This document shows positions 25,201-64,000 of a DNA stretch of 64,000 nt, one piece after another (the stretch's first letter is position 1; each line of letters starts with the position of its first letter). A program made the position numbers and the translations under genes. Source of the DNA: Candidatus Undinarchaeales archaeon (GTDB taxonomy: Archaea; SpSt-1190; JASMDC01). The notes beneath the pieces were generated by a model that saw nothing but the letters and a program-made list of their open reading frames with translations, was not told the origin of the DNA and ran no database searches. The DNA is taken from contig JASMDC010000003.1 in NCBI GenBank assembly GCA_030753015.1, forward strand, positions 90,780 to 154,779. Direction: 5' to 3'.

Positions 25201-25670
25201 TTGCATAGGGAATAGCCATCCTCGCAGGTGGTCGTGGAGCACGCATTTTCAGTGCAAAGGAAATTGATGCAATCCGCCGCCTCGCAGCACTCGCCACCAA
25301 TCATCCAGGTCGTATCGCAGCATATGCCGCCGGTCTTTGCCTTGCACCCGTGAGCGTTGTTGCACTCCTGGCAGTCGTTGCACGTCAAATCGACGCAAAT
25401 CTTATCCGAGCAGGTCTTGCAGTTATCGCATTCGTCGTCGGAACAGCAGTTCTTACCAACGAACCAGAACCCCATACAGCATATACCACCGGTTTTTTCC
25501 ACGCATGCGTGGTCGATAAGATCCTGGCAGGCGGTGCACACGAGGTCAACGCAGGCCCCGTCTTCACAGCTCTGGTCAGCGTTGCAGTCGTCGTTGGTAG
25601 TGCAAGCTGCGGATAAAGTTACCACTAAAAAAAGCACGAGAGCTATAACGGTCCATATGGAGAGTCTCAT
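13278..25670 (-). CDS. giant cysteine-rich surface protein, 4130 aa, C-terminally membrane-anchored
   Basis: A signal peptide (TVIALVLFLVVTLSAAC) leads into an ectodomain of about 3850 residues made of Cys-rich modules; in the first 140 residues about one in five is Cys. From about residue 120 to 2600 a unit of roughly 95-100 residues recurs (pattern GxxCTxxxQCxSGxCVxxxCGTC, GWCCxxxCV, CxCxxxxxC). Later come calcium-binding-like DxDxDG segments (PDYDNDGFADDKDPCP; DRDMDGMPDSEDPCP) and GDGxC/NCxxD units. A beta-sandwich-like stretch (about 3860-3965) precedes one membrane helix (about 3975-3993) and a cytoplasmic Gln/Gly/Tyr tail with two GLHPG and a final GFHP motif. It is probably a disulfide-rich adhesin or cell-surface fibre. 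The ATG overlaps the stop of the upstream gene by 4 nt. Function unknown. Confidence 0.85.
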   Translation of the reverse strand: MRLSIWTVIALVLFLVVTLSAACTTNDDCNADQSCEDGACVDLVCTACQDLIDHACVEKTGGICCMGFWFVGKNCCSDDECDNCKTCSDKICVDLTCNDCQECNNAHGCKAKTGGICCDTTWMIGGECCEAADCINFLCTENACSTTTCEDGYSLCNDECIVLVAAEGSCTLDCHCQANLDCVGEEGSKKCLKANEQTCTVGTECASGVCVDGACGTCADQDDLTACTKEGVADGWCCQNTCFAPLALDGDCGGVACKCNTNLQCTTDGCKKEAGQTCTDSGQCASKLCAATGLCGTPATGAACLLSGNPTGSVCNEACCSNICDTGTEPDTCDTACASAGETCYETAGGQGGQQGACCNDQCVREAERKAAGTSCTETCECQDGLACGGPEGSKTCRLAAGEPCTAWDECASVVCVQQTAGGNYVCGSCQAKDATFACKAEGIIGLCCNDQCIAPAGLDSGCTQDCHCLANFECSGTKCKRVDGQDCTTWSECANSVCVDDTCGSCTGNDGTACIANGIADGRCCANACSIPGDVGTACTADCQCVENTECAGEEGSRTCRKVNGQACTDSGQCSSGLCDASGLCSTPATGSKCMLTGNPSGTVCADACCATICDTSTDPDTCGTGCAIGGATCYKTVGSQGGQEGKCCNDGCVRDVERLPSGESCTVTCQCTGGLICTGPENNKKCKKEVGGPCTVWSECASGACVQATPGGDYTCGTCDGKDLTYACKSETATGWCCLNQCVTPLGLDEDCTDHCECEDGLQCAGNKCKKEDGEACTTWSQCASGECVMGTAGGAYVCGGCAGKDTSFNCTADGVTGWCCTGACTAPVSQDGACAQNCNCGEAFGCTDTGAGKKCKLKEGQSCTQSDDCSQKLCSLDGVCNGALVSPNQCFMDDPTKGTVCQDKCCGLPSFCINDQCVVLCGVVGATCYEGAGTEGVCCQNECFTLDERGGLFDACNAGCQCKTEYSCTGNKCLYKNGRTCSSWSQCSSGLCVSDGGTYKCGACTAGNAGVACEGDGFNGLCCDNACRVRQGLGAACVSDCYCEETFQCTEGFCKLKETQACEKSLDCANSICAVDPQVCNGGLTSPSKCYVQYPGTKGTACGGQCCGMPNFCFGATKACVNTCNNVWVECYEGSGTPGICCQTGCYTEDERKGLDGICAADCQCKGDFVCTLLACKLKDDRTCSAGNQCASSVCIEMTQDSYKCGTCGAGTTKKECSAGALTGWCCGAECVEPKSLDGSCTADCHCLNNYLCAGAVGNKKCKKVDGQTCTSWDQCVSGVCVDGMCGACGGSDFTTCSRDGVDDGWCCGVQCVAPQGLDAQCTSDCHCETTMQCVGAEGNKLCKLKNDQTCTDSAQCSSELCDAAGKCGTPTTGSKCMLGGTHAGSVCNDVCCANTCNTGTTPYTCGANCANAGATCYESDGGQGGQQGKCCNNNCIRQAEKQPLGQVCQVTCECDETAQLECTGGICKTKSGQPCTQGNQCGTNICVDGLCEECTQDKVSCQSGNTQSGWCCNGECVDAVPLNGVCTGNCNCQGDTELSCSFGIGLCKLTGGQTCSQSTDCDSKVCSAGGAACATNSGQGDLCKVDTNIDGLVCHDECCNGYCDSDSDVCNECGLGHACMKLVSGVKKYGSCCADQCFLTTDRKGYEKDCEEHCECGANLECAVATDNKCRMAAGQGCTNGTACASGACVSGICGTCVGKTDISTGCMTPTFSDGWCCAGACVSPKETGEDCVQNCECKVGMQCAGNKCKKNDGQSCTDSGQCASGICRTDSTCGPDDTGDICKIAGANIGTVCGSVCCNAICDVGLNLCSTTTCVEDHVCYENQGTQGSCCADACYTPGELLLLDAACVKSCQCKNTLACTDDAGGDKCKLKDGQTCTSGAECSSGVCVAGTCGTCAGKAISSQCKTATILDGWCCEGACVTHGALDAGCGADCQCQDQYSCTGLLCKLKNSQNCIHGEDCSSSVCVNDVCGTCVGKGKTNACDTQAVANGWCCADECVSPGELGDACTEDCQCKDQFLCTGFQCKRKNGEACISGDQCASDVCVQQTAGGNYVCGSCGGKSVDTQCKTGTVDDGYCCSGGCNRHKGQDEGCTVDCNCDPTFTCKDNRCKKKAGQACVTAGECAVGQCVAGTCRTCTGIVDFTSCASTTVTSGKCCNNICTAPKGLGEGCTFTCQCGSNMECIGAVCKKAAGQPCTSGDQCGTGLCVGAPGESICGTCNTDDFTACKTITISDGWCCGGECAAPQALDGPCDSYCECHQNFACTETGIGKKCKLKKAQTCTLSTDCTSGVCLSNGQCDQAAVGMSCKITAGIDGSVCGNSWAWDTCCAKICDAGTTQCAMTCTEGNTCYEGAGIQGECCTSTCITPPEKGGLNAPCGKDCVCDQTRFTCVDTYGGPNVDTCKKINGQGCESGRDCASKVCVDGTCGTCMGMLAKTPCSTDVLAQGWCCNNQCIYAKPINSPCQRDCECNVGTECHNGLCKLSAGETCTSAALCSSGQCVSSGAYTCGNCVVDGVGCLDENGVIKQCCSNLCNVGWKGVTEPCGNDCECATNMKCAGNPRTCKYVDGQPCTHGNQCQSGYCVDKTGNNGWRCGTCDAAEDNGNKIIDTQGTTGVCCVGNHCTPICRDSDVNGQVDTCNSCEGMAQGSLCYTVAGEGECCNNKCYSSKLPSGQSCNKDCECEAGFCDRNTHLCTDLAGEGALCISDADCQSGLTCIDTDGNGRLDKCSTCNKHGSRKCQEDILSGYCCGGTCKGMLYLSWFPEAECGENPCDGEVKCIAGDWKCNTAGQYKCFQDQSSTCTQTGIFNTGQAANCVPYKCDGTTGKCRTTCVSNDHCLTSYSCIDLTTDGVPETCDTCTGHEASVCDLGGKTGFCCGDACNAPPVAEWTPANRCGEQDCNGAVKCEDDSWVCDTYGDPVCSPDLTLRGQCSNVGAFSSLGDCSPYTCDPSVGQCRTACASSIDCQTQFPCIDIDGQTGLDRCASCSAFGAAACEHLGTSGFCCGNGCEAMSSAQWNPGGGCGLNQCDGGKVTCRESEWLCDTFERHVCNEGRTRTTQCSKLGEYDIPTEDSCGSYICDPTVGTCMTGCTSDIHCTSQCCVLGSCVEKKTKEEGESCEKDCECGGNSVCDPGTKKCSKAVTCPNGQVRNCDASKPICVDDPLKEWLCKPECFPDEAPCVTENSRGFCCAGTCISPRPGFFPGKDCGRLDCGGNVGCNLATGELTCNSFGSICCDSNAPGTCNEVGDCQATSPPCSNQCGGGGSRTFLNYTCHTGLCEAVSSDCSEILFQCNSDRGCVECLDDTHCEDQCQRYSFLNYTCQNFKCEILGADIQDCSTGGSNQICQLPTGCLQCISTEQCQAQYGANYACDFQTLGCKVAKCFKDENCPYTCEQNIYRGQSCNNYICQDKPEQDCKAEGGICTREGCVNCVSDVNCTLTYGTDFGCKGGRCEMLCGNGKCDEGEDCNDCPQDCQCKGTETCDPTTTWAHGCAPDYDNDGFADDKDPCPRDPKNACKPCQGDKDCTDMCHQNVHIEFSCQISVCTPGTEVSCAEMGLICDPAARCVRCGNMTDSNKACKTAFEFTYICADDRCLPDRDMDGMPDSEDPCPTDPTNACTAECPNNVCEATEDCNTCPEDCGCDDGNACSVDRCILGQCIYEASDCGSACETGVCDGDSECMVRSSGGGDCFCEGMCEKGYTCDQSQKCAKAECGDGKCQNECGQCPQDCSIKDCLNNGVCDTSMGENCASAPKDCSCMPGFTCDAQRPESNEIGCYRIACGDKHCDSPDETSGTCCVDCECPGNQKCDPETNSCRGGCGDGECELATECDSCRVDCTPDDCINRKCAPGIGENCRNSADCICDAEIESEATLVMVEKQTKLLSFTVKNTGSLRDAFDITIESDSTLVGLAWTKRLKVNIDVNATFPLSVDVQGHIPGSHVIIINAVPRGLPNKTIIRKVVVAVEQESVLEQIGVLANIKDFIEVIVIIGALFLAVKRRFFPGKAVPVATQGAWQQQQQANYMANQYYGGGGYYGQSGAWRATPANNAQWGGQAGGWGQGQAMQAQAQQAAPPPKKEEPKEELSDAARGLHPGAVSGPSTPGKGLHPGDEGSTSDAKAKKTEEEEDLDYRGFHP
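17900..25250 (-). repeat. tandem coding repeats of the giant Cys-rich protein
   Basis: A protein unit of about 95-100 residues recurs more than twenty times by eye, with diverged DNA but fixed Cys spacing (QCxSGxCVxGxCGTC, then GWCCxxxCVxP, then CxCxxxxxCxGxxCK). A variant unit with GSKCMLxGxxxGTVC and QGGQxGKCCND recurs near 24800, 23850 and 21500. Boundaries are approximate. Confidence 0.7.
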
Positions 25671-47346: not shown

Positions 47347-48744
47347 CTAGAACGCCTCGAGAAAGGCGGTGTACTCTCGCACCGTCGCGTAGAGATCGTC
47401 CGCGTGGACAACCTCTGCCTCGGCAGAGTGCATGGACCAGATGGCAGGTCCCGAGTCAATAACGGAAGCACCCTTCTGGGCGATGAACTTGGCGATCGTG
47501 CCGCCGCCACCGCCGTCGACCTGGGCGTAGAGCGTGGGCTGGTAGGCGATGCCCTCGCGTTCGTTCATGTCCTGAAGGCGCTCTGATAGCTCGATAGGCG
47601 ATTCGGAGGCGCCATACTTCCCGCCCCGTCCCGTGTAGGGGGCGATGGTGACGCCCTTGCCCGCGTGGGCTCCGTTGGCCTTGTCGTAGTTCTCGGGGAA
47701 TATGGGATTGTAAGCGGCCTTCACGTCGGCAGAGATGCCGGCCGATGCCATGACGACCTCCCGCTTGAAGGCGTCGGGATCCTGGATGTAGGGAACCTCC
47801 TGCCGCGCAGCAGCGAAACCCTTCTCGTCGATGGCCTCCCTGGCCTTGGCCCCTCCGACCACTCCTGAGACCTTGTCGATCACATAGTCAAAGAACGCGC
47901 CCTGTGCGCCGGTCTTGCCGTTGGAGCCGATCTCCTCCTTATCGAAGGCGAACGCGATGGCCGTGCGGCCAGGTGTGCCGATATCGGTTATGGCCTTGGT
48001 GGCCGCGTACGAGCAGATGGTGTCATCGTGCTGGCCCACGAGGGTATCCCCGACACGGTAGGGTTCGGCACGAGGGACGATGGTGAGGGACGCGTTGAGA
48101 AGGTCCTTCCCGGAGATCTCGGTCCCGGCGCTCTCGGAGAGTGCAGCGTAGAAGTCGTCCTTTGTGAAGTATCCGGTGAACACGTCGAGCTTCTCGCCGG
48201 GGAAAGCGTCACCCACCTTCTGGTCGGACTGCTTGTCGAGGTGGGGGAGCTTCTCGGGCACAGTGGCCAGATCGAGCTGGACCTGGTAGGTCTTCCCGTC
48301 CTTGGCGATCTCTCCTCGGAGTTCAAGGGGGCGGGCGAACCACTGGTGCTTCTTGATGCCCCCGTAGTACTGGGTGTCGATGAAGACACCGTCACCCGAG
48401 TCGAACACACCCTCAGCAGCCCGCTTGACATGGAGCTCTGGAGTGTCGAGGTGGGCGAACAGCATGTTGACGCCCTCGGAAAGTTCTTTCGAACCGATGA
48501 CGATACCGGCCACATCGCGGTAGTCCTCTGAGGCAACGTAGACCTTGCGGCCTGCGAGCTCCTCGGTGGACACTCCCGCAGAAATTTCCTTCTCGAGCTC
48601 TTCCACAGGGATAAATCCGGCGGACTCAAGTCGCCGGACCATCTCACGGCCGGTATCGGGAGCGGTGCGTGACGCCTTCTGGAACTCCAGGTAATCCTGG
48701 GCGATGGCATCCCGTTCCGTATTCCCGTTACTGGTCGCGTTCAG
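47347..48744 (-). CDS. M18 family aminopeptidase, second copy, probable CTG start
   Basis: Metal and catalytic residues of M18 peptidases are present: AHLDTPEL, GQHDDTICSY, DKEEIGSNGKTG, and the late SMHSAEAE. It releases N-terminal residues, often Asp/Glu, in the cytoplasm. The first ATG is at 48642, but the frame upstream still matches the other copy (DYLEFQK; TGREMVRRLE), so translation must start earlier. The only in-frame candidate after the previous stop is CTG at 48744, 6 nt after GGAGGG. It follows the first copy by 15 nt. Confidence 0.88.
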   Translation of the reverse strand: MNATSNGNTERDAIAQDYLEFQKASRTAPDTGREMVRRLESAGFIPVEELEKEISAGVSTEELAGRKVYVASEDYRDVAGIVIGSKELSEGVNMLFAHLDTPELHVKRAAEGVFDSGDGVFIDTQYYGGIKKHQWFARPLELRGEIAKDGKTYQVQLDLATVPEKLPHLDKQSDQKVGDAFPGEKLDVFTGYFTKDDFYAALSESAGTEISGKDLLNASLTIVPRAEPYRVGDTLVGQHDDTICSYAATKAITDIGTPGRTAIAFAFDKEEIGSNGKTGAQGAFFDYVIDKVSGVVGGAKAREAIDEKGFAAARQEVPYIQDPDAFKREVVMASAGISADVKAAYNPIFPENYDKANGAHAGKGVTIAPYTGRGGKYGASESPIELSERLQDMNEREGIAYQPTLYAQVDGGGGGTIAKFIAQKGASVIDSGPAIWSMHSAEAEVVHADDLYATVREYTAFLEAF

Positions 48745-48759
48745 GTGTATCCCTCCTGT

Positions 48760-50184
48760 TCAGCTCTCGAGGTAGGCCTCGATCTCCTGCTCGCACGAGT
48801 AGAGGTCGACCACGTGGGCAATCTCCGATGCGGGGGAGTGCATGCTCCAGAGAGCAGGGCCTGTGTCGATAGTGTCAACTCCCTTCTGGGCGATGAACTT
48901 GGCGATCGTACCGCCGCCACCGCCATCCACCTTTCCGAGGAGACCCGGTTGGTAGGGGATGGAGTTGCGGGCGTTGATGGCACCGAGCTCCTCCGTAGCG
49001 CCGATCGGTGCCTCAGATGTGGAGTACTTGCCTCCCGAGCCCGTGTACGGGGTGACTGTAACGCCCTCACCGAGGTGGGCCGAGTTGCGCGGATCGAAGT
49101 TCTCGGGGAAGATCGGGTTGTAGGCGGCGTTGACGTCCGCTGAGAGCGCCTTGGAGGCGTAGAGCACCTCACGCTTGAACGCGCCGGCGTCCCTGAGGAA
49201 CTGCTCTTCCTTGTACACATCACCGAATTCCTTCGCCTTGAGCTTCTCGGTGACCTCGGCGCCTTTGACCACTCCCGTGACCTTGTCGACCACATAGTCG
49301 AAGAAGGCGCCTTGGCCCCCGGTCTTGCCGTTGGAGCCGATTTCCTCCTTGTCGAATCCGATGACGATTGCTGTGTGCTTTGGTGTCCCGATGCGGGTTA
49401 TGGCCTCGGTCTGTGTGTAGGAACAGATTGTATCGTCGTGCTGGCCGACGAGCGCTTCGCCCACACGGTAGGGATCGCCCCGGGGGACGACGGTGAGGTA
49501 CGAATTGACCAGGTCTTCCTTTGTGATCTCGATGCCCGCCTTATCGGACACGGCCGCGAGGAAGTCAGCCTCCTTGAAGTAGCCGGTGAACACGTCGAGC
49601 TTCTCTCCTGGGAAGGCGTCGCCCACCTTCTGACCGGACTGCTTGTCGAGGTGGGGGAGCTTCTCTGGTACCGTGGCAAGGTCGATGGTGAAGTGGTGGA
49701 GCTTGCCATCCTTGGACACCTCTCCTCGGAGCTCGAGGGGGCGGGCGAACCACTGGTGCTTTTTGATCCCACCGTAGTACTGTGTGTCGAGGAACACGCC
49801 GTCGCCGTCGGTGTCGAAGATACCGCCTTCGGCACGCTTGACGTGGAGCTCGGGTTTGTCCATGTGCGCGTACGCTAAGTTCATTCCCTGCTCCAGGCCT
49901 TCTTCTCCGATGACGATGCCTGCGACGTTCCGGAAGTCCTCCGAGGCGATGTAGACCTTCTGGCCCACGAGCTCCTCGTACGAAGCGCCCTCCTTGACCT
50001 CCTCTCCCAGATCCTCGATGGACCGGAATCCGGCGGCCTCTAGACGGCGGACGGTCTCCCTTCCAGTCTCCCAGACGGTCTTTGATTCCTTCTGGAAATC
50101 GAGATAGTCGTTGACCATCTCGTCCATTTCACCTCGCTGGGCATCTGTGAGCTTGTCGATCGCGCGGGTCTTTTCTTCGGCCAT
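48760..50184 (-). CDS. M18 family aminopeptidase, first copy
   Basis: The metal-binding set is AHMDKPEL, GQHDDTICSY, FDKEEIGSNGKTG, and SMHSPASE. The 474 residues are near the family's normal length. It is very similar along its length to the next gene, so this is a tandem duplication. An ATG at 50184 follows GGTGAT, and two TATA-like blocks lie upstream. Cytosolic dodecameric aminopeptidase in the family. Confidence 0.92.
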   Translation of the reverse strand: MAEEKTRAIDKLTDAQRGEMDEMVNDYLDFQKESKTVWETGRETVRRLEAAGFRSIEDLGEEVKEGASYEELVGQKVYIASEDFRNVAGIVIGEEGLEQGMNLAYAHMDKPELHVKRAEGGIFDTDGDGVFLDTQYYGGIKKHQWFARPLELRGEVSKDGKLHHFTIDLATVPEKLPHLDKQSGQKVGDAFPGEKLDVFTGYFKEADFLAAVSDKAGIEITKEDLVNSYLTVVPRGDPYRVGEALVGQHDDTICSYTQTEAITRIGTPKHTAIVIGFDKEEIGSNGKTGGQGAFFDYVVDKVTGVVKGAEVTEKLKAKEFGDVYKEEQFLRDAGAFKREVLYASKALSADVNAAYNPIFPENFDPRNSAHLGEGVTVTPYTGSGGKYSTSEAPIGATEELGAINARNSIPYQPGLLGKVDGGGGGTIAKFIAQKGVDTIDTGPALWSMHSPASEIAHVVDLYSCEQEIEAYLES

Positions 50185-54360: not shown

Positions 54361-54792
54361 GTGGCCTCGGACCTCGGTTCGGCGCCCTACATCCTTATCA
54401 TAGACACGGAAACGATGAGCGTGGATGCTGTTCGTAACCGGCCTGAAAGGGATGGCCGGGATCCCGGCGAACGGGCAGCCGAACTAATCATAGCTCGGAA
54501 TGCGACGACTGTGCTCATGGGGGACGCGGATCCCCGGGCAGTAGCACTGCTCGAGTCGAGTGGCGCAGAGGTCCGACGAGGCCACAGTGGGACGGTGACG
54601 ACGGTGCTCGAGCGGCAGGTGCCACGTAGTACCATCAGCGTGGACGAGTGTTTCTGTCCGAATTGTAGCTACGCTCACCGGCGCACAGGGGCACGACCCT
54701 GTTTCCAACGCAAATGCCCACAGTGCGGCAGTGCTATGGACCGGCGATGGATTACACCCTATAAGTGGGGCGCGTTCAATCCGGGACAATAG
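54361..54792 (+). CDS. NifX/NifB-like cofactor-binding domain with C-terminal zinc ribbon
   Basis: The N-terminal part fits the dinitrogenase iron-molybdenum cofactor-binding domain (APYILIIDTE; AELIIARNATTVLMG; RRGHSGTVTTVLE). The C-terminus has CPNC and CPQC, a zinc ribbon. GTG 54361 is the first usual start codon, yet the frame upstream still codes for family-like sequence (AILAIPARGADRAALVASD) back to about 54313, where only an ATA overlapping the prior stop is available. Role unknown; it is not evidence of nitrogen fixation. Confidence 0.65.
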   Translation: MASDLGSAPYILIIDTETMSVDAVRNRPERDGRDPGERAAELIIARNATTVLMGDADPRAVALLESSGAEVRRGHSGTVTTVLERQVPRSTISVDECFCPNCSYAHRRTGARPCFQRKCPQCGSAMDRRWITPYKWGAFNPGQ

Positions 54793-54800
54793 CTAAAAGC

Positions 54801-54819
54801 GGAGGGCGCAGCGCCCTCC
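54801..54819. promoter_or_regulatory. perfect inverted repeat just ahead of the BMC operon promoter
   Basis: GGAGGGCGC and GCGCCCTCC (9 bp, perfect) flank a single A, 4 nt ahead of the TATA box and 8 nt after the preceding stop. It may be an operator for the BMC operon or a terminator. Confidence 0.45.
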
Positions 54820-54823
54820 ATAG

Positions 54824-54832
54824 TATTAAATA
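54824..54832 (+). promoter_or_regulatory. TATA box of the BMC operon
   Basis: TATTAAATA lies 38-46 nt before the ATG at 54870, directly after the inverted repeat. Confidence 0.5.
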
Positions 54833-54869
54833 GCTTAGCGTCCTCGCCCTCTCCCGATAACGAGAGCGG

Positions 54870-55517
54870 ATGCCCATGGCCGAACAGAAGGTGCAGCTCA
54901 GATGTTATAGTTACATCGACATGTTGCAGCCGCAGTTCGCGTCGTACTTTGCCACAGTGGCCCGAGGCTACCTCCCAAAGGCGGGCCAGGCCGCCCTCTT
55001 TATCGAGATCGCTCCCGGGATGCCCATCAATCGGATCACTGACGTGGCCGTGAAGGCCACATCAGTCACTGTTGGCGAGCTCATCGTCGAGCGGTCCTTC
55101 GGATTCCTGGAGATTCACCATGACTCCCAGGCCGAAGTGATGCAGGCAGGCCAGGCAATCCTCGACTATCTGGGAATCGATGAGTCCGATAGGCTCAAGC
55201 CCAAGCTCGTCACCAACCAGATCATCAAACGGGTAAACGATTATCACTCCATGCTCATCAACCGCAGTACCAAGGGCATGATGCTCGTGCGGGACCAGTC
55301 TCTCTACATAGGTGAGACCGTCCCTGCAGGCTATGCTGCGTACGCTGCCAACGAGGCTGAAAAGGCGGCCGATATCAACATTATCAACGTGCGCGCCGTT
55401 GGACGTTTCGGACGGTACTATATCGGCGGGACCGAGTCAGAGGTCCAAGCAGCCATGCAGGCCGCAACCGTTGCGGTGAATTCTCTGGAAGGTAAGGAAG
55501 AGGAGCGAAAGAAATAG
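54870..55517 (+). CDS. BMC shell protein, double-domain trimer type (BMC-T)
   Basis: The 215 residues contain two BMC folds: one around 5-100 (LRCYSYIDMLQPQ; LFIEIAPGMPINRITDVAVKA) and one around 120-208 (SLYIGETVPAGYAAYAANEAEKA; INIINVRAVGRFGRYYIGG). This matches trimer shell proteins of the gated, stacking class that tile microcompartment facets. First gene of the locus. An ATG two codons on (54876) is an alternative start. It is separated from the rest by a hairpin and a second promoter. Confidence 0.88.
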   Translation: MPMAEQKVQLRCYSYIDMLQPQFASYFATVARGYLPKAGQAALFIEIAPGMPINRITDVAVKATSVTVGELIVERSFGFLEIHHDSQAEVMQAGQAILDYLGIDESDRLKPKLVTNQIIKRVNDYHSMLINRSTKGMMLVRDQSLYIGETVPAGYAAYAANEAEKAADINIINVRAVGRFGRYYIGGTESEVQAAMQAATVAVNSLEGKEEERKK

Positions 55518-55521
55518 CCCA

Positions 55522-55539
55522 CCCGGGCGCCGCCCCGGG
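55522..55539 (+). terminator. GC hairpin after the BMC-T gene
   Basis: CCCGGG arms flank a 6-nt loop starting 5 nt after the stop codon. It may lower read-through or protect the upstream mRNA end. Confidence 0.4.
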
Positions 55540-55540
55540 G

Positions 55541-55554
55541 GATATAATTTAAAG
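55541..55554 (+). promoter_or_regulatory. internal TATA box ahead of the BMC-H gene
   Basis: GATATAATTTAAAG directly follows the hairpin and lies about 70-85 nt before the BMC-H start, so the main shell protein and downstream genes may have their own promoter. Confidence 0.5.
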
Positions 55555-55624
55555 GAATACGTCCGTTATACCTATCTCCCGAAGGGAGAACTGTTCACTG
55601 AAAGAGTATCGGAGGCGACCATAA

Positions 55625-55939
55625 ATGGAAGGGAACATCGCACTCGGCATGATTGAAACACGGGGCCTTATAGGCTCTATCGAGGCCGCGGACGCCATGG
55701 TTAAGGCGGCACGGGTCAATCTCATTGGCAAGGAATTCATCGGTGGAGGCTATGTCACCGTGATGGTACGTGGTGATGTGGGAGCTGTGAAGGCTGCCGT
55801 CGACGCTGGCGCTGCTGCTGCTAAGCGCGTCGGTGAGCTCGTGTCTGTGCACGTCATACCTCGCCCCCACGGCGATGTGGAGTACATCCTCCCCAGTATC
55901 GACACGGCGGCCGAACATCCGGTCGTCAAGAAGAAATAG
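55625..55939 (+). CDS. BMC shell hexamer protein (BMC-H), PduA-like
   Basis: A single BMC domain with [36 protein letters not shown] and [16 protein letters not shown] is close to PduA/CcmK hexamers. These form most of the facets, and their central pore lets substrates through; the pore loop here reads IGGGY. C-terminal KKK tail. GGAGG precedes the ATG. A very similar second copy lies at 60466. Confidence 0.95.
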
Positions 55940-55952
55940 GGTCGCATCGTGA

Positions 55953-55981
55953 GACCGTCCCCGGTCATACCGGGGGCGGTC
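55953..55981 (+). terminator. 13-bp stem-loop after the first BMC-H gene
   Basis: GACCGTCCCCGGT and ACCGGGGGCGGTC pair over 13 bp with one G-U and a 3-nt loop, 13 nt after the stop. It could stabilise the shell-gene mRNA or cut down read-through, raising shell protein over enzymes. Confidence 0.5.
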
Positions 55982-56015
55982 GGACCGGATACTTGGGAAG
56001 AGGGGTCGTCATCGT

Positions 56016-56744
56016 ATGGACGCTGATGAGTTGATTGAGGAGATCACCAACGAGGTCCTCAAGCGTTTCGATCCTACTTTTATCCGTATCGAGGACCGCC
56101 GCATTCTTGTTGTGCTCCACACACCTGATAGGCATGTACCTCTTGCCCTGACACGGCTCCTGGAGGATGTCGGTCCGCCGAGTGATCGGGATATCCTGGT
56201 TACGCCTGAAGTGCGTTCTTACCTGGCAGGACTCGGTATCAACTGTCGGGATCATGCTCGCGACGTCTTCGAACCTGATGCCGTCCCCGGAATCCTCCAT
56301 CGCCTCCATGAATATCGCATGGTGGTCGTCCCTGCTGTGAGCTTCCATACCGTGCGCGCCATCGCCGAGCTGCGGGACGAGGAGCCCTTCGTGCAACTTG
56401 TACTCCAAGCATTGCTACGGGGGTTGAAGGTAGTGATGCTCACCGATGCGCTCGTACCTGCCCAGCGTGAGGGCGCGTCCGTGGCCCCGGGTCTCACGGC
56501 CGCGGCCGAGGATAACTTAAAAAAGCTACTTGCCTACAACATCGTGCTCGTACGGCTCGATGAGATTGGGACGGCGGTAGCAGAGAAGAAAGTGCCTTCG
56601 TCCAAGGACCTCATCACTGAGCAAGACATCATTGACCTCAAGAACGGTGATGTGACCGGACTCAGGGTGCCCCCCAAGACGATCGTGACGCCGCTGGCGC
56701 GCGACAAGGCGAAGGAATTGGGCATCACAATCATCCGGGAATGA
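56016..56744 (+). CDS. BMC-associated flavoprotein-like protein with N-terminal encapsulation-type helix
   Basis: Residues 2-18 (DADELIEEITNEVLKRF) form a short amphipathic helix like those that target enzymes into microcompartments. The middle is an alpha/beta domain (RRILVVLHTPDR; RMVVVPAVSFHTVRAIAEL) resembling flavoprotein domains of the UbiX/Dfp fold. The C-terminus (ITEQDIIDLKNG; IVTPLARDKAKELGI) recalls a short motif seen in other BMC proteins. Function uncertain; it may bind FMN or a related cofactor. It is co-directional in the BMC operon. Confidence 0.6.
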   Translation: MDADELIEEITNEVLKRFDPTFIRIEDRRILVVLHTPDRHVPLALTRLLEDVGPPSDRDILVTPEVRSYLAGLGINCRDHARDVFEPDAVPGILHRLHEYRMVVVPAVSFHTVRAIAELRDEEPFVQLVLQALLRGLKVVMLTDALVPAQREGASVAPGLTAAAEDNLKKLLAYNIVLVRLDEIGTAVAEKKVPSSKDLITEQDIIDLKNGDVTGLRVPPKTIVTPLARDKAKELGITIIRE

Positions 56745-56781
56745 TGCTCGGGATCCCGTGCGGGGAGAGGGGTAAGCGTCC

Positions 56782-57096
56782 ATGGACGTATGCAAGATAA
56801 TAGGCGACATCGTCAGCACACAAAAGGACCCTAAAGCAGAGGGTTTCAAGCTCCTTGTGGTCCAACAGTTGGACATGTTGACTCAACAACCCAAAGGATA
56901 TACCCTCGTGGCAGCGGATACGGTCGGTGCCGGGATGGGCGAGGTCGTGCTTGTAGTGCGAGGGAGCTCTTCGCGCATGACACAGCTCACAAACGAGAAG
57001 CCCATCGACGCCGCCATCATGGGGATCATCGACTACATACATATCGACGGGGAGCGGGTGTACTCAAAGTACCCCGACCGCGACCTGGAGACCTAA
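56782..57096 (+). CDS. BMC shell pentamer (vertex) protein, EutN/CcmL family, first copy
   Basis: The protein has the EutN/CcmL fold: MDVCKIIGDIVSTQKDP at the start, LLVVQQLD, VAADTVGAGMGEVVLVVRGSS and IMGIIDYIHIDG. Pentamers cap the vertices of the shell. The 104-residue length is typical. 12 nt ahead of the aldehyde dehydrogenase gene. Confidence 0.92.
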   Translation: MDVCKIIGDIVSTQKDPKAEGFKLLVVQQLDMLTQQPKGYTLVAADTVGAGMGEVVLVVRGSSSRMTQLTNEKPIDAAIMGIIDYIHIDGERVYSKYPDRDLET

Positions 57097-57107
57097 GGGG
57101 ATAGATC

Positions 57108-58538
57108 ATGGAAGTCACCGAGGACCAGATATCAAACATCGTCGAGGTAGTGCTCAAGAACGTGCAGAACCAGCTGGGCGACATGCCTGCGGCACGCGCG
57201 GGATCCTCTCCCAAAGGCGAGGACGGAATCTTTGCTACCATCGAGGAAGCCGTCACGCACTCACTCGCGGCGCAGGAACAGTTCGTGGAAATGGAACTGT
57301 CCAAACGCGTCGATATCATCCGAGCCATCCGTGATGCTATGGAGGAAAGTGCCCGGACCTTGGCCGAGATGGCAGTTCGCGAAGTCGCGTTCGGTCGAAT
57401 CGAGGACAAGATCAAGAAGAACCTGCTCGCGGCCAGGAAGGCCCCGGGCATCGAGGCACTACCGACCACCGCTTGGAGCGGTGACGACGGCCTCACTCTC
57501 GTGGAACGAGGTCCCTATGGTGTCATCGGTTCCATCACACCTACCACCAATCCCGTGGCCACCATCACGTCCAATGCCATATCAATGCTCGCGGGAGGCA
57601 ACAGCGTCGTGTTCAATCCTCATCCAAGGTCCAAGGGCGTCACCAACCGTGCGATCCAGATCATAAACCAGGCAATCGTAGCAGCAGGGGGCCCGCCGAA
57701 CCTTCTCTGTTCCGTCATCGAGCCGACCATCGAGACATCGAACGAGCTGATGAACCATCCAATGATCCGGATGCTGATGGTCACCGGAGGCCCCGGCGTG
57801 GTGGCCGTGGCCATGAAGACCGGTAAGAAGGTCGTGGCCGCAGGTCCGGGTAATCCACCAGTCATCGTGGACGATACCGCAAACATCCCCCGGGCCGCCA
57901 AGGACATCGTGGACGGGGCCAGCTTCGATAACAATGTGCTGTGCATCGCTGAGAAGGAGGTGTACTGTTTCGAGGACGTCACCGACCAGCTCAAGGAGGA
58001 GATGAAGAAGTACGGCGCCTATGAGATCAGCGGCAAGCAGATTGAGGACCTCATCTCCCTCGTGTTCGTGGACCCTGCTGGGGAACATCCCAAGATCAAC
58101 ACAAAATGGGTGGGTATCGACGCCTGGCGAATCCTCAGGGAGATCGATATACGCGTCAACGAGGACGTCCGGCTCATTATCGCCGAGGTTCCCGATGAAC
58201 ATTCCTTCGTCAATGCCGAGATGCTCATGCCCGTTCTACCGATCGTACGGGTGAATACCATCGAGGAAGCGCTGGAAAGGGCAAAGCGCGCCGAGCACGG
58301 TTTCCGCCACACGGCCTGCATGCACTCAGAGAGCGTCTCCAATATGAGCTACGTAGCACGCTACATTGACACCACAATCTTCGTCAAGAACGCCCCCTCC
58401 TATGCCGGGCTCGGCTTCGGTGGCGAGGGGCACGCCTCCCTGAGCATCGCTGGACCGACGGGGGAGGGCATCACAGGGCCTTTTGCCTTCACCCGCGAAC
58501 GACGGTGCGTGCTCGCGGGATCCTTCCGCATCGTGTGA
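57108..58538 (+). CDS. CoA-acylating aldehyde dehydrogenase of BMC type (PduP/EutE-like)
   Basis: The N-terminal helix (TEDQISNIVEVVLKNVQNQL) followed by a Gly/Ser-rich linker is a probable encapsulation peptide. The ALDH core has GPYGVIGSITPTTNP, the FNPHPRS segment, the VTGGPGVV loop and the catalytic Cys279 in NNVLCIAEKEV, as in acylating EutE/PduP. It turns an aldehyde into acyl-CoA with NAD+. Complete at 476 residues. The aldehyde source in this locus is not identified. Confidence 0.92.
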   Translation: MEVTEDQISNIVEVVLKNVQNQLGDMPAARAGSSPKGEDGIFATIEEAVTHSLAAQEQFVEMELSKRVDIIRAIRDAMEESARTLAEMAVREVAFGRIEDKIKKNLLAARKAPGIEALPTTAWSGDDGLTLVERGPYGVIGSITPTTNPVATITSNAISMLAGGNSVVFNPHPRSKGVTNRAIQIINQAIVAAGGPPNLLCSVIEPTIETSNELMNHPMIRMLMVTGGPGVVAVAMKTGKKVVAAGPGNPPVIVDDTANIPRAAKDIVDGASFDNNVLCIAEKEVYCFEDVTDQLKEEMKKYGAYEISGKQIEDLISLVFVDPAGEHPKINTKWVGIDAWRILREIDIRVNEDVRLIIAEVPDEHSFVNAEMLMPVLPIVRVNTIEEALERAKRAEHGFRHTACMHSESVSNMSYVARYIDTTIFVKNAPSYAGLGFGGEGHASLSIAGPTGEGITGPFAFTRERRCVLAGSFRIV

Positions 58539-58549
58539 GTGAGTGAACC

Positions 58550-59884
58550 ATGGCCAAGAAACCCATCGACGCTATCAGGGACGCAGGTATCGTAGGGGCC
58601 GGCGGAGCCGGTTTCCCTACCCATGTCAAGCTGTCGGCAAAGGTCGATACAGTAATCGTCAACGGCGCTGAGTGCGAACCCCTGCTCAAGGTGGACCAGC
58701 AGCTCACCGCCCTCCGAGCCGAGGAGGTGGTAGCGGGCCTGGAGATAGCTCTGGAGCTCACTGGTGCCGAGCGAGGCATCATCGCTCTCAAAGCGAAGTA
58801 CAAGGCCGCCATCGAAGCGCTCACTCCCCTTATCGAGGGGAAGGACAACATCAGTATCGAGCTGCTGGGAAACTTCTACCCGGCGGGGGACGAGCAAGTG
58901 CTCGTGTACGAGATTCTGGGGCGCATCGTACCAGAGGGCGGTATCCCCTTGGAAGTGGGCGTCGTGGTCCAGAACGTGGGCACACTGATCAACATTGCCA
59001 AGGCCGTGAAGGACGACGCCCCCGTCACCTCCAGAGCGTTGACCGTCGCTGGCGCTGTGGCGGAACCCATGACGGTAGAGGTCCCTATTGGGACGTCCCT
59101 TCGCGAGCTCGTGGCCATAGCCGGGGGGCCCACTGACGAACCGTATGGCGTCATAGTGGGAGGCCCCATGATGGGGAAGGTCGAGACCGACCTTGACACG
59201 CCTATTGACAAGACGACCTCGGGGATCGTCGTCCTCCCGTCGGACCACCCGCTCATACTCAAGAAACAGGACGATATGTCCCGCAAGCTCAAGCTCGCCC
59301 GGGCCGCATGCATACGATGCAGTCTCTGCACACAGACCTGCCCGCGCAGCCTGTTGGGCCACCATCTATGGCCGGACCGGCTCATGCGTGCAATGGCCTA
59401 TAATGTCACGTGCGATCCTTCCGACCTTACAAACGCATTCCTGTGTGTCGAATGTGGTGTCTGCACGACCTACGCTTGCCCCATGGGGCTGGACCCGTGC
59501 GCCATGAACCGGGAGATCAAGGCACGTCTGGCCAAGGAGGGATTGGACAATCCCCACCGGGCCAAGGAACTGACCCCGAACCAGTACCGCTCGACCCGCA
59601 AGATCCCGACCTACCGGCTCGTCGGCCGGCTTGGCCTGCTGGAGTACGATCGCGAGGCGCCTGTGCGAGCGGTCGACCACATTGTCCGCAAGGTGCGTAT
59701 CCCGCTCAAGCAGCACATCGGCGCACCCGCCAAGACCACGGTGATCGTTGGCGATACCGTGAAGGAAGGGGATGTCATCGCCGAGATTCCTGATGGCTCT
59801 CTGGGAGCCCGAGTTCACGCGTCCATCGCCGGGCGCGTTACCAAGATACTCGACCACATAGAGATAACCGCGGAGGAGAAGTGA
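58550..59884 (+). CDS. PduS/RnfC-like iron-sulfur flavoprotein
   Basis: GIVGAGGAGFPTHVKL near the start is the nucleotide/FMN-binding region shared by PduS and RnfC. Two [4Fe-4S] motifs follow, CIRCSLCTQTCP (about residue 253) and CVECGVCTTYACP (about 299). A C-terminal SLBB/lipoyl-like domain comes after (VGDTVKEGDVIAEIPDG). PduS reduces cobalamin in propanediol compartments; in this locus, with no cobalamin enzyme in view, NADH reoxidation is more likely. The PduT-like gene follows immediately. Confidence 0.88.
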   Translation: MAKKPIDAIRDAGIVGAGGAGFPTHVKLSAKVDTVIVNGAECEPLLKVDQQLTALRAEEVVAGLEIALELTGAERGIIALKAKYKAAIEALTPLIEGKDNISIELLGNFYPAGDEQVLVYEILGRIVPEGGIPLEVGVVVQNVGTLINIAKAVKDDAPVTSRALTVAGAVAEPMTVEVPIGTSLRELVAIAGGPTDEPYGVIVGGPMMGKVETDLDTPIDKTTSGIVVLPSDHPLILKKQDDMSRKLKLARAACIRCSLCTQTCPRSLLGHHLWPDRLMRAMAYNVTCDPSDLTNAFLCVECGVCTTYACPMGLDPCAMNREIKARLAKEGLDNPHRAKELTPNQYRSTRKIPTYRLVGRLGLLEYDREAPVRAVDHIVRKVRIPLKQHIGAPAKTTVIVGDTVKEGDVIAEIPDGSLGARVHASIAGRVTKILDHIEITAEEK

Positions 59885-59888
59885 TCAT

Positions 59889-60437
59889 ATGGTCCATGCT
59901 ATCGGTCTTGTAGAAACCAACAACGTCGCCAAGGGCATCGAGTGCTGTGACGTGATGCTCAAGCGTTCGGATGTGGAGGCCATCGCCTCCTATCCCGTCT
60001 GTCCGGGGAAGTATATAATCCTCATCGCTGGCGAGGTGGCAGCAGTGAGTTCGTCAGTGGACGCGGGCAAGCTTCAGGCCCTGGATTCCCTGGTGGATGA
60101 CTTCGTCATCCCGAACATACACCCCCAGGTGTTCCCTGCCATTCAGGCCACCACCGAGGTCGACGATCTCCAAGCATTGGGTGTCATCGAGACATTCTCG
60201 CTCTCATCCTGCATCGTGGCTGCCGACTTCGCCGTGAAGGCCGCGGACGTCACGCTCATCGAGATCCGTCTCGGGCGTGCCCTCGGAGGCAAGTCCTTCG
60301 TCACCCTGACTGGGGATACGGCCGCCGTTCGTTCGGCGGTCCAGGCCGGTGTGGAGTCCGTACGCGAGGATGGGCTCCTCCTCGACTACGTGGTCATCCC
60401 ATCACCCCATCCCAAACTTCTTGAGTCCATCGTGTAA
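59889..60437 (+). CDS. BMC-T shell protein, PduT-like with Fe-S pore cysteine
   Basis: Two tandem BMC domains (about 1-90 and 93-182). Cys38 in YPVCPGKYIILIAGEV is in the position of the PduT Cys38 that holds a [4Fe-4S] cluster at the trimer pore. A trimer would thus move electrons through the shell. It starts 5 nt after the PduS-like gene, the usual partner. Trimer-type shell component. Confidence 0.88.
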   Translation: MVHAIGLVETNNVAKGIECCDVMLKRSDVEAIASYPVCPGKYIILIAGEVAAVSSSVDAGKLQALDSLVDDFVIPNIHPQVFPAIQATTEVDDLQALGVIETFSLSSCIVAADFAVKAADVTLIEIRLGRALGGKSFVTLTGDTAAVRSAVQAGVESVREDGLLLDYVVIPSPHPKLLESIV

Positions 60438-60465
60438 TTCGGACAACTGAGGTGACACCGCGCTC

Positions 60466-60771
60466 ATGGAGACACCGACAGGCTGGGGGGATGCCCTTGG
60501 AATGGTGGAGACGCGGGGTCTCGTTGGTGCCATTGAGGCTGCCGACGCCATGGTCAAGGCAGCACGGGTCTCTCTAGCGGGGCTCGAGCGTATTAGTGGT
60601 GGACTGGTGACGGTGATGGTGCGGGGTGACGTCGGGGCCGTGAAGGCTGCGGTCGACGCTGGAGCCGCTGCTGCCCAGAGGGTTGGTGAGCTCGTTGCAG
60701 TCCACGTGATCCCCCGTCCCGACGAACTGGTCGAGGGCGTTATTCCACATGGCCCGGGGGGGCGAGGGTAG
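60466..60771 (+). CDS. BMC shell hexamer protein, second copy (BMC-H)
   Basis: [36 protein letters not shown] and [10 protein letters not shown] are almost the same as in the copy at 55625, but the pore loop reads ISGGL rather than IGGGY and the tail is GPGGRG. The N-terminus has a short extension, METPTGWGD. It probably adds facets with a differently selective pore. Ends directly before the second pentamer gene. Confidence 0.93.
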
Positions 60772-61062
60772 ATGCTCCTTGCCCGGGTCGTGGGCAACAT
60801 CTGGGCTACTCAGAAGATACCTGTGCATGCGGACCAGAAGATCATGGTATGCGTCCCCGTCGACCTGAAGGGGAAATCCGAGGGCGACACATTCCTGGCC
60901 ATCGACCGTGCTCAGGCGGGGATTGGGGATGTCGTGCTGATATCCCAAGAGGGTAAGTGCTGTAACATGCTCATCGGCCGCGAATGGGCGGCCTGCAACT
61001 CAGCTATCCTCGGGATAGTGGACTTAATCGAGACAGAGGAAGGATCAACACAGTTTGCGTGA
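60772..61062 (+). CDS. BMC shell pentamer protein, second copy
   Basis: EutN/CcmL family, 96 residues: MLLARVVGNIWATQK, KIMVCVPVDL, FLAIDRAQAGIGDVVLIS and NSAILGIVDLIE. A second vertex protein distinct from the one at 56782. The ATG directly follows the BMC-H stop. Confidence 0.92.
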   Translation: MLLARVVGNIWATQKIPVHADQKIMVCVPVDLKGKSEGDTFLAIDRAQAGIGDVVLISQEGKCCNMLIGREWAACNSAILGIVDLIETEEGSTQFA

Positions 61063-61064
61063 TT

Positions 61065-61994
61065 ATGATGGACGACGAAGAACTAGCCAAAGTGGTGAGA
61101 GATGTTGTACTCTCGAAACTCCAGGAGAAACAGGCCCAAGACGCACTTTCGGCGTCCCCGGAAGATACGTCCCCTGAAGGGACCATCCCGCGTCATACCT
61201 ATGCAGAAGCTGGTAATCCCCCCCTCATCGTGGCGGCAAATTGGAAGATGCACATGGACAAGCGATCTACAACTGAGTTCGCCCAGGCGTTCGATCCGCC
61301 TGCACGGGACGACCTCGGTGTTGTAATATGCCCGCCCTATTACCTACTATCCCTGCTCAAAGATGCCTTGGGTGACAAGCCCGTGGCAGTAGGTGCCCAG
61401 AACATGCACCCTGAGCCAAAGGGGCCCTTCACGGGCGAGCTATCCCCTCTCATGCTCGCTGATGCGGGCTGCTCGCATGTAATCCTCGGCCACTCCGAGC
61501 GCCGGAAAAACTTCGGTGAGACCTCTGAAAAGATCAATCCGAAGGTGGCCGCCGCCCTCGGTGCGGGACTTGCTCCAATCCTATGTGTGGGGGAGACGCT
61601 AGATCAAAGGGAAGATGGTGCGACCATGCGTGTGGTCACCAACCAACTCACCCTCAGCCTCAACCGTATATCCATCAACGAGGTGCGTCCCCTTATCATT
61701 GCTTACGAGCCGATGTGGGCCATCGGCACCGGACGGAACGCCACTCCTGAGCAGGCGCAAGAGGTCCATGCGCACATCAGAGAGGTGCTCAAGCAGCTTT
61801 ATTCCTACAACGTTGCCCGGGACACACGCATCCTCTACGGTGGTTCGGTGAAGCCGGACAATGCTGGCGACCTGGCAATCCAGCCCGACGTGGACGGATT
61901 CCTTGTGGGCGGGGCCAGCCTCAAGCCAGACTCCTTCACCGAAATCATCCGCAACGCCCTGCGTGCGTTGGAGAAAGACGGCTCACAGGGGTGA
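61065..61994 (+). CDS. tpiA: triosephosphate isomerase with N-terminal encapsulation peptide
   Basis: The catalytic part is a bacterial-type triosephosphate isomerase: AANWKMHMD (about residue 56), GHSERRKNFGET, AYEPMWAIGTGR and LYGGSVKPDNAGDL. Before it lie about 54 extra residues: an amphipathic helix DDEELAKVVRDVVLSKLQ and a Pro/Ser/Thr linker. This design is typical of enzymes sent into a BMC lumen. It interconverts glyceraldehyde 3-phosphate and dihydroxyacetone phosphate. ATG 61065 is 3 nt after the pentamer gene; upstream frame overlaps that gene and is ignored. Archaeal triosephosphate isomerases are shorter and lack such a leader. Confidence 0.9.
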   Translation: MMDDEELAKVVRDVVLSKLQEKQAQDALSASPEDTSPEGTIPRHTYAEAGNPPLIVAANWKMHMDKRSTTEFAQAFDPPARDDLGVVICPPYYLLSLLKDALGDKPVAVGAQNMHPEPKGPFTGELSPLMLADAGCSHVILGHSERRKNFGETSEKINPKVAAALGAGLAPILCVGETLDQREDGATMRVVTNQLTLSLNRISINEVRPLIIAYEPMWAIGTGRNATPEQAQEVHAHIREVLKQLYSYNVARDTRILYGGSVKPDNAGDLAIQPDVDGFLVGGASLKPDSFTEIIRNALRALEKDGSQG

Positions 61995-62000
61995 TGCCAG

Positions 62001-62483
62001 ATGGACTTCACGAAGGACACTCGCGTAGCGATCGGCAGCGACCACGGTGGCTTCGAGCTCAAGGAGATCGTGAAGGACCACCTCCTGCGATTGGGTTATT
62101 GTGTAGTGGACCTCGGATGCCATTCTCCGGACCCGGTGGACTATCCCGACATAGCCTTCCTTGTCGCCAGTGCCATAGCGACCAACGACGACACGGCCGG
62201 TATTATGGTGGACGGTGTCGGTGTTGCTTCTGCCATGGTGGGCAACAAGGTGCCCGGCGTGCGGGCCGCGCCGGTGTACGACGTGTTCTCGGCCAGGTCC
62301 AGTCGTGAGCACAACGATGCTAACATGCTCACTCTTGGTGCTAGGGTCACAGGGCCTGGTTTGGCGTGCCTCGTCGCCGAGGAATGGCTTGTGACGCCCT
62401 TCGGTGGGGGACGACACGAACGGCGGGTGAACAAGATCCGGGACATCGAGGCCCGCTTCATCCGGAGGGTACCTCTGAAATAG
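62001..62483 (+). CDS. RpiB/LacAB-like sugar-phosphate isomerase, divergent active site
   Basis: The RpiB fold is clear: VAIGSDHGGFELK, NKVPGVRAAPVYDVFSA and SREHNDANMLTLGARV. The catalytic CGTG loop of typical ribose-5-phosphate isomerase B reads VDGVGVASAM here, so the Cys is replaced by Asp or Val, and the Glu of the mycobacterial type is also absent. It may act on another sugar phosphate or by another base. Last gene of the operon, 6 nt after the isomerase gene; no N-terminal targeting helix is seen. Confidence 0.85.
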   Translation: MDFTKDTRVAIGSDHGGFELKEIVKDHLLRLGYCVVDLGCHSPDPVDYPDIAFLVASAIATNDDTAGIMVDGVGVASAMVGNKVPGVRAAPVYDVFSARSSREHNDANMLTLGARVTGPGLACLVAEEWLVTPFGGGRHERRVNKIRDIEARFIRRVPLK

Positions 62484-62730: not shown

Positions 62731-63531
62731 ATGAACATGGGACGGATTTCAAATAGGCGGCGTATCCCGAGTATCGCGTTCGTGCGGTCACGACGTGGAG
62801 TGACCCCTGTCATTGCCATTATCCTGCTTCTGATGATGACAGTGGCCGCGGCGGGATCCGCTTATCTGTGGATCACGAAGATATCGAAGACGATCAGAGC
62901 TTCGGCAGAGAAGAACATAATGAATAGCTTTCGGACGGGCAAGATTGAGGTGATCTCGTCTTATGGATGTGAGGAGAACTGTACGAAGGACACCCGGGCA
63001 TCTGGTGGGCCGAGAGGTGAATGTTCGGAGGAGCCGGGCACCATCCAGATGCTTAATGCTGACCGCTCTGGATTCTATGAAGACGGTGAAATCGGTTCTG
63101 AAGGGAAGACCCGTGGTCCCGCAGTTGACGTGGCTGCTCAAGTGGAGCGTCACGTGTGCCTGTTGATGCGTAATACTGGTGGGACCGTTCTCCGCATCAC
63201 CGATCTGGGAACATCGCAGTTTACCTACGAGCTCCCCAATGCCCCAGAAAAGGGAGTGCGACCGCTCCTAAGCAGGGATGTGGCCGCTCTGTTCAGCATC
63301 GACGACCAGAAGGTCGCATGTCGGATTTCGGACATGGGTACCCTGGGTTCGTGCGGGCCCAATAAGAAGTCACTCAATGCGGGGGAGACCTTCGTCCTGA
63401 ACTTCTATGGGACCTTCAAGGATGCCCAAGACCGGCGACGACGTTTCACTTACACCGATGCCAAGGACCAGCGTATCATCATTGGTCTAACCCTCCCAAG
63501 CGGGTCAAGGAATTCCCATCAAGTGGTGTAG
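62731..63531 (+). CDS. archaeal type IV pilin-like protein
   Basis: A basic leader ending RRG is followed by VTPVIAIILLLMMTVAAAGSAYLW, the class III signal peptide and pilin helix of archaeal pilins; cleavage is expected after the Gly. The mature 240 residues have several Cys (CEENC; VERHVCLLM) and a beta-rich head. It is likely an adhesive pilus subunit. ATG 62731 or 62737. A strong hairpin follows the stop. Close relative of the gene at 63831. Confidence 0.85.
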   Translation: MNMGRISNRRRIPSIAFVRSRRGVTPVIAIILLLMMTVAAAGSAYLWITKISKTIRASAEKNIMNSFRTGKIEVISSYGCEENCTKDTRASGGPRGECSEEPGTIQMLNADRSGFYEDGEIGSEGKTRGPAVDVAAQVERHVCLLMRNTGGTVLRITDLGTSQFTYELPNAPEKGVRPLLSRDVAALFSIDDQKVACRISDMGTLGSCGPNKKSLNAGETFVLNFYGTFKDAQDRRRRFTYTDAKDQRIIIGLTLPSGSRNSHQVV

Positions 63532-63559: not shown

Positions 63560-63771
63560 ATAAGTCTTTACCTGAAAGATGGAATAATATTCTATTATAA
63601 TTGAATTAAATTACTAATTTATCAATTTAAGAAGAATTATTCGTTGATACACGGATAAACGGGATATTATTAAGATTGGAAAGATTATACGGAAGAATAA
63701 TGGTTATTGAGGCGAAATGCAAATAATCCGATGAGGGAAATGACCGCACGTGCAAAGGTTCAGGATAACGC
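63560..63771. other. AT-rich spacer between two pilin genes
   Basis: About 210 nt, much richer in A/T than the rest of the window, with runs such as AATAATATTCTATTATAATT. No coding frame is supported. It may hold regulatory sites or be a recombination-prone junction between the two pilin genes. Confidence 0.4.
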
Positions 63772-63779
63772 CTTTAAAC
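63772..63779 (+). promoter_or_regulatory. TATA box of the second pilin gene
   Basis: CTTTAAAC lies about 52-60 nt before the ATG at 63831. Confidence 0.4.
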
Positions 63780-63830
63780 AATGAGCGCCCAAAGGCTAGT
63801 GGACGAACCCAGAACACGGAGATGTATACT

Positions 63831-64000
63831 ATGAGAATCCGAATGAAGCGACTCATGCGGTCCAAGCGCGGTGTGACACCTGTCATTGCCATCATCCTGT
63901 TGCTCATGATGACGGTAGCAGCGGCAGGTGCGGCCTATCTCTGGATCACGAAGATCCAGAAGACGATTACCACACAGGCAGAGAAGCAGATCATGACCAG
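63831..64000 (+). CDS. archaeal type IV pilin-like protein, N-terminal part (cut by window edge)
   Basis: The frame opens MRIRMKRLMRSKRG and continues VTPVIAIILLLMMTVAAAG and AYLWITKIQKTI, nearly the same as the pilin at 62731 around the cleavage site and helix. GGAG lies about 8 nt before the ATG. The remainder is beyond the window. Probably a second subunit of the same pilus. Confidence 0.85.
   Translation, partial: MRIRMKRLMRSKRGVTPVIAIILLLMMTVAAAGAAYLWITKIQKTITTQAEKQIMT

Follow-up and report, generated by a model that had tools for sequence, protein, structure and literature searches.

The final part of a 64,000-nucleotide stretch of DNA from Candidatus Undinarchaeales archaeon (the window) carries an operon for a bacterial microcompartment (BMC). 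The window covers positions 90780-154779 of contig C51 of genome G000 and ends together with that contig. Eleven plus-strand genes occupy 54870-62483, all of them intact, with ATG starts and intergenic gaps of 0-107 bp. Gene identities were assigned by Pfam and NCBIfam profile searches and structural relatives by PDB matches; the profile matches are near full-length, with E-values down to 1e-193, and chance is excluded. Considered together with a second locus in the same genome, the operon probably represents a horizontally acquired, now archaeal, metabolosome of the sugar-phosphate-utilisation (SPU) type. The features of the operon are the following.

54793..54869, no strand: operon leader, non-coding, with a palindrome, GGAGGGCGCAGCGCCCTCC, and an AT-rich ATTAAATA stretch
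54870..55517, + strand: BMC-T, CcmP-like double-stacking trimer type, 215 aa (NF053796, E 3e-79)
55625..55939, + strand: BMC-H hexamer protein (PF00936, E 1.2e-30; exceeds the EutM model cut-off)
56016..56744, + strand: accessory protein with HFCD-flavoprotein fold, N-terminal helix and PduM/TIGR02536-like C-terminus (TIGR02536, E 1.5e-10; PduM, E 2.6e-5)
56782..57096, + strand: BMC-P pentamer protein 1 (PF03319, E 3.9e-28)
57108..58538, + strand: CoA-acylating aldehyde dehydrogenase (AldDH), EutE/PduP type, with N-terminal encapsulation-type helix (NF011927, E 3.6e-193, 642 bits against a cut-off of 403)
58550..59884, + strand: PduS-like/RnfC-like flavin Fe-S oxidoreductase (PF01512, PF10531, PF13375, PF13534; Complex1_51K/RnfC_N/SLBB/Fer4)
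59889..60437, + strand: BMC-T, PduT-like (TIGR02526, E 5.8e-36; PDB 3nwg, E 3.9e-62)
60466..60771, + strand: BMC-H hexamer protein 2 (PF00936, E 3.1e-30)
60772..61062, + strand: BMC-P pentamer protein 2 (PF03319, E 4.9e-18)
61065..61994, + strand: triosephosphate isomerase (TPI), bacterial type, with N-terminal extension of ~50 aa (PF00121, E 1.6e-92, from residue 55)
62001..62483, + strand: RpiB/LacAB-family sugar-phosphate isomerase (TIGR00689, E 3e-44; TIGR00689 and PRK05571 over cut-off)

The shell set of BMC-H, BMC-T and BMC-P is encoded together, with the BMC domain in four of the operon proteins (E 2.5e-7 to 1.6e-47) and the EutN_CcmL domain in two. The top PDB matches of the CcmP-like BMC-T are HO-5816 (5v74, E 1.6e-66) and CcmP. 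For the PduT-like BMC-T, the nearest solved structures are the PduT-type trimers 3nwg and 3n79, and Cys-Pro-Gly-Lys stands at the PduT Fe-S ligand position (CPGKY aligned with 3nwg). The preferred TPI start, 61065, yields the N-terminal extension of this protein, a candidate encapsulation peptide. The profile searches confirm the eleven same-strand BMC genes proposed in an initial annotation made from the letters alone. Its flavoprotein-like protein holds as a fold, since the AlphaFold2 model (pLDDT 76) comprises an N-terminal helix, a linker and an HFCD-flavoprotein fold, with UbiX, EpiD and DmrB as Foldseek matches; the C-terminus, however, is PduM-like. The operon start, previously placed at 54801, has to be moved to the first gene at 54870, before which lies the non-coding leader with its palindrome. 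By eye, the AT-rich stretch of the leader is a possible archaeal TATA element, and scans for sigma-70 promoters and terminators gave matches not above chance level.

The signature aldolase is encoded elsewhere in the genome. A genome-wide search located a DeoC-type domain on contig C33 of G000, in a satellite that runs to the end of the contig and holds a class II aldolase, a DeoC fusion and, last, a third BMC-P. The satellite adjoins the C-terminus of an archaeal-type leucyl-tRNA synthetase (LeuRS). The DeoC protein, of 473 aa, starts with a helix-like segment, continues with a Cys-rich one and ends in the DeoC domain (TIGR00126, E 2.6e-85). For the class II aldolase, the top models include fuculose-phosphate aldolase, with none over cut-off. 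SPU loci are defined by two enzymes, DeoC and RpiB (PMC8217296), and DeoC together with TPI gave the type its name in 2014 (PMC4207490). Herein, the DeoC-type aldolase is present in the satellite and the RpiB-type isomerase and TPI in the operon, along with the CoA-acylating aldehyde dehydrogenase of the metabolosome core. On this gene content, operon and satellite DeoC therefore identify the archaeal locus as an SPU metabolosome, in line with the SPU-like character proposed at the outset. The earlier description of the operon as complete needs qualifying for the aldolase, which lies in the satellite, and for a phosphotransacylase, which was not found.

Helix-like N-terminal extensions occur on AldDH, TPI, DeoC and the accessory protein across the compared loci, and that of TPI is shared with the loci L006, L155 and L008 described below. 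The amphipathic moment exceeds that of shuffled sequences for AldDH (p 0.021), DeoC (p 0.024) and the L006 TPI (p 0.025); the accessory flavoprotein-fold protein is not above shuffles (p 0.126), and on the class II aldolase no clear N-terminal extension was seen. In addition, BMC-type DeoC fusions share a conserved C-x(5-7)-C-x2-C-x2-C motif directly before the DeoC domain, possibly an Fe-S or zinc site within the compartment. It is found in these fusions:

L019:1450-2871, minus strand
L006:8380-9795
L155:6312-7751, minus strand
L008:13321-15234

The host chromosome is archaeal, as first proposed, because archaeal genes lie on both sides of the operon, composition and genome kinship agree, and a second archaeal metagenome-assembled genome (MAG) carries a syntenic locus. 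Upstream on C51, eL33 (L35Ae equivalog over cut-off) lies at most 2.7 kb from the operon and a class I lysyl-tRNA synthetase (LysRS; lysS_arch over cut-off) 11 kb from it, and a protein with an archaellin/type IV pilin N-terminal domain starts 247 bp after the operon. Leaving aside the 3-kb satellite end, the tetranucleotide composition of the operon correlates at r 0.61-0.75 with that of contigs from its own genome, and at r 0.34-0.40 with that of bacterial BMC contigs. G000 holds a single RpoA' gene, whose tree joins it to small-genome class relatives (93/56), apart from Thermoplasmatota; the partial RpoA' rows of G005-G007 are misplaced in this tree and were left uninterpreted. The LysRS of C51 likewise groups with a class relative and others, apart from Thermoplasmatota (95/95). 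Both marker trees put the genome within archaea. At 3.85 Mb, against 0.6-1.1 Mb in its class relatives, G000 appears to be a branch with a large genome in an otherwise small-genome archaeal class.

Screening the GTDB species genomes with AldDH gave as best match, at 59% identity, the Candidatus Thermoplasmatota MAG ETNP2_MAG_1 (genome G061, locus L006). The order at L006 is BMC-T, accessory protein, BMC-P, AldDH, PduS, PduT, BMC-P, TPI, RpiB, BMC-P, BMC-H and DeoC fusion, and the DeoC within this main locus bears a targeting-type helix. Pairwise identity to the window proteins is ~49-61% for most, 78% for BMC-H and 29% for the accessory protein. G061 also contains a second, shell-only cluster close to archaeal Lsm and RadB genes, comprising a BMC-P, a diverged BMC-T and a BMC-H with a DeoR-type helix-turn-helix; in this enzyme-free cluster, the BMC-H domain is fused to the C-terminal DeoR-like module (L111:7815-8510, contig C73). 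No further genome with true BMC genes was found in samples of 394 genomes from across the archaea and 389 from the phylum of G061. Four weak BMC-domain matches in other archaea (L060-L063) proved on inspection not to be shell proteins, being subunits similar to NuoK or NuoJ, or a membrane protein of no relation.

The closest bacterial architecture was found in Myxococcota (L155, in G753, and L008, in AUK157), with the order PduL, accessory protein, BMC-P, AldDH, PduS, PduT, BMC-P, TPI, RpiB, BMC-P, BMC-H and DeoC fusion, the placement of BMC-H varying slightly. In a concatenated tree, the two archaeal loci separate from all sampled bacteria (99.9/99), and a tree of CcmP-like proteins sets the two archaeal sequences apart from the bacterial ones (100/100, on long branches). 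Single-gene quartets favour the archaeal pair in 10 of 11 cases, strongly for AldDH and weakly for several others; the exception is RpiB, with a slight preference for a different arrangement. Adding a distant outgroup to an AldDH tree failed to root the pair. Most likely, both loci descend from a single archaeal-type locus that moved between phyla or was inherited and widely lost. The original transfer would have run from bacteria to archaea, as suggested by the distribution, the trees being unrooted on direction.

Both archaeal loci place the CcmP-like BMC-T where the nearest bacterial loci have PduL. Genome-wide profile searches found neither PduL (PF06130) nor PTA (PF01515) in G000 or G061, whereas the bacterial relative G063 matched PduL twice and PTA three times. 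Marinimicrobia SPU loci likewise lack PduL (PMC4207490), so this absence does not exclude an SPU function. An encapsulated ADP-forming acetyl-CoA synthetase was considered as a PduL substitute and rejected, the G061 pair (L149, L151) having no N-terminal extension before the catalytic domain; in G000, this enzyme gave weak matches only, some of them SucD-like. In a Treponema locus (L007:8664-9674), PduL is fused to a PduM-like C-terminal module of the kind in which the flavoprotein-fold accessory protein ends. A bolder view, offered tentatively and rather doubtful at present, takes the archaeal metabolosomes as a lineage of their own that dropped the usual step of CoA recycling. CoA and acetyl-CoA would instead move between shell and cytosol by way of a CcmP-like gated trimer that replaced PduL; this would fit archaea lacking Pta, and the lineage would have spread between archaeal phyla.

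Gene content, intact frames, N-terminal extensions, the satellite DeoC, the archaeal context, the second archaeal case and the failure to find PduL or PTA can be read directly from the sequences; substrate, flux direction, electron export, what the CcmP-like trimer does and shell assembly are predictions. In the proposed pathway, 2-deoxyribose-5-phosphate would come from nucleosides or DNA broken down in the cytosol, and DeoC would cleave it inside the shell to glyceraldehyde-3-phosphate and acetaldehyde. The class II aldolase may add a second route, to dihydroxyacetone phosphate (DHAP) and a short aldehyde, the encapsulated TPI would interconvert the triose phosphates, and the RpiB-like isomerase presumably acts on a pentose phosphate. 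Toxic acetaldehyde would be retained by the shell until the EutE/PduP-type dehydrogenase converts it to acetyl-CoA and NADH. PduS would then oxidise the NADH, with electrons leaving by way of the PduT-like trimer and its Fe-S centre, and no alcohol dehydrogenase would therefore be required. None is encoded among the eleven operon genes, although the whole genome was not searched for it, and alcohol dehydrogenase is also absent from the bacterial SPU loci of 2014 (PMC4207490). Phosphorylated metabolites, and perhaps acetyl-CoA and CoA, may pass through the CcmP-like gated trimer.

Several observations weigh against an archaeal SPU metabolosome. Both archaeal genomes are MAGs, and G000, in 117 contigs, has an estimated contamination of 5.01% and no 16S rRNA gene, archaeal or other, that could be found. 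Contig ends border both the G000 satellite and the L006 locus, so PduL may lie in an assembly gap; without PduL, the pathway lacks its usual means of recycling CoA; and the N-terminal helix of the window TPI has an amphipathic moment not significantly above shuffles (p 0.59). The genome-quality figures, with the operon close to a contig end and a genome size far above that of the class relatives, could point to an assembly or binning artefact, in which a bacterial SPU locus was joined to, or binned with, archaeal contigs. Such an error is improbable, however, given archaeal genes on both sides of the operon on one contig, an operon composition matching its own genome, and a satellite on a second contig that adjoins an archaeal LeuRS, while the single RpoA' gene speaks against a mix of two archaea. 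Furthermore, contamination is unlikely because an independent archaeal MAG from another phylum has the same gene set with the same rearrangement, its proteins mostly ~49-61% identical and forming a clade with those of the window.

The substrate might also be a different one. With the class II aldolase as signature enzyme and DeoC secondary, a ketose-1-phosphate of the fuculose, rhamnulose or 5-deoxyribulose type would be split into DHAP and lactaldehyde or acetaldehyde, and TPI would connect DHAP and glyceraldehyde-3-phosphate. The aldolase does adjoin DeoC in the satellite, recurs in several bacterial SPU-like loci and has fuculose-phosphate aldolase among its sub-threshold top models, yet it has no clear N-terminal extension, and L006 dispenses with it while retaining a DeoC with a targeting-type helix; we regard this alternative as unlikely, if somewhat less so than an artefact. 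DeoC and AldDH are reversible, and the pathway could in principle run anabolically, acetyl-CoA being reduced to acetaldehyde that DeoC condenses with glyceraldehyde-3-phosphate to deoxyribose-5-phosphate. No PduL or PTA was found that would pull flux to acetate, as this direction would allow, but there is no known archaeal need for it, PduS and PduT suit NADH oxidation and the PduL-bearing bacterial relatives suit catabolism, which makes it the most far-fetched of the three. Catabolic use of deoxyribose-5-phosphate in an archaeal SPU metabolosome is thus preferred.

Other features surround the operon. A small NifX-type (Nitro_FeMo-Co) protein with a C-terminal Cys-rich segment is encoded at 54361-54792 on the same strand, 77 bp before the first shell gene. 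Downstream lie two tandem archaeal pilin-type genes (62731-63531 and 63750-64000) with a near-identical N-terminal motif, RRGVTPVIAIILLLMMTVAAAG and KRGVTPVIAIILLLMMTVAAAG, the second interrupted by the contig end. On the minus strand, 47347-50184 holds two adjoining paralogues, aminopeptidase-like by eye, and 13278-25670 a 4130-aa open reading frame, probably for a surface protein, that is rich in Cys close to the N-terminus.

BMCs have been stated to occur in bacteria only and not in archaea (PMC6620236), and the main text of a 2021 catalogue of more than 7000 BMC loci does not contain the word archaea (PMC8217296). No report of archaeal BMCs was found in the open-access literature, to which the search was confined. 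The presence of one and the same rearranged SPU locus in two archaeal genomes of different phyla indicates that protein organelles have passed between domains and been retained. Moreover, the PduL-less variant makes testable the long-standing assumption that a metabolosome must regenerate CoA within its shell.

Among known systems, the bacterial SPU loci of Atribacteria, Marinimicrobia, Gemmatimonadetes and others share the DeoC-type aldolase, RpiB, AldDH and the BMC-H/T/P set (PMC4207490, PMC8217296), and those of Atribacteria also TPI and PduS. The present system differs from them in its archaeal host, in the CcmP-like BMC-T at the PduL position, with PduL and PTA not found in the genome, and, in G000, in the separation of DeoC, the third BMC-P and the class II aldolase into a satellite. 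The Myxococcota loci L155 and L008 agree in gene order and in the N-terminal extensions on AldDH, TPI and DeoC, at ~38-75% identity for the proteins compared, but open with PduL, and a CcmP-like BMC-T is absent from the sequence examined. With the HO BMC of Haliangium ochraceum, the operon shares the CcmP-like BMC-T (5v74) and the BMC-H type; that compartment has no known function, and in some genomes its pfam01791 enzyme, if there is one, is encoded elsewhere (PMC8217296). Finally, propanediol-utilisation (PDU) and glycyl radical enzyme microcompartment (GRM) metabolosomes have PduS, PduT and a PduP-type AldDH in common with the archaeal system, together with electron export by PduS/PduT, here predicted, whereas the signature enzyme in the archaeal system is an aldolase, with no diol dehydratase or glycyl radical enzyme among the operon genes.

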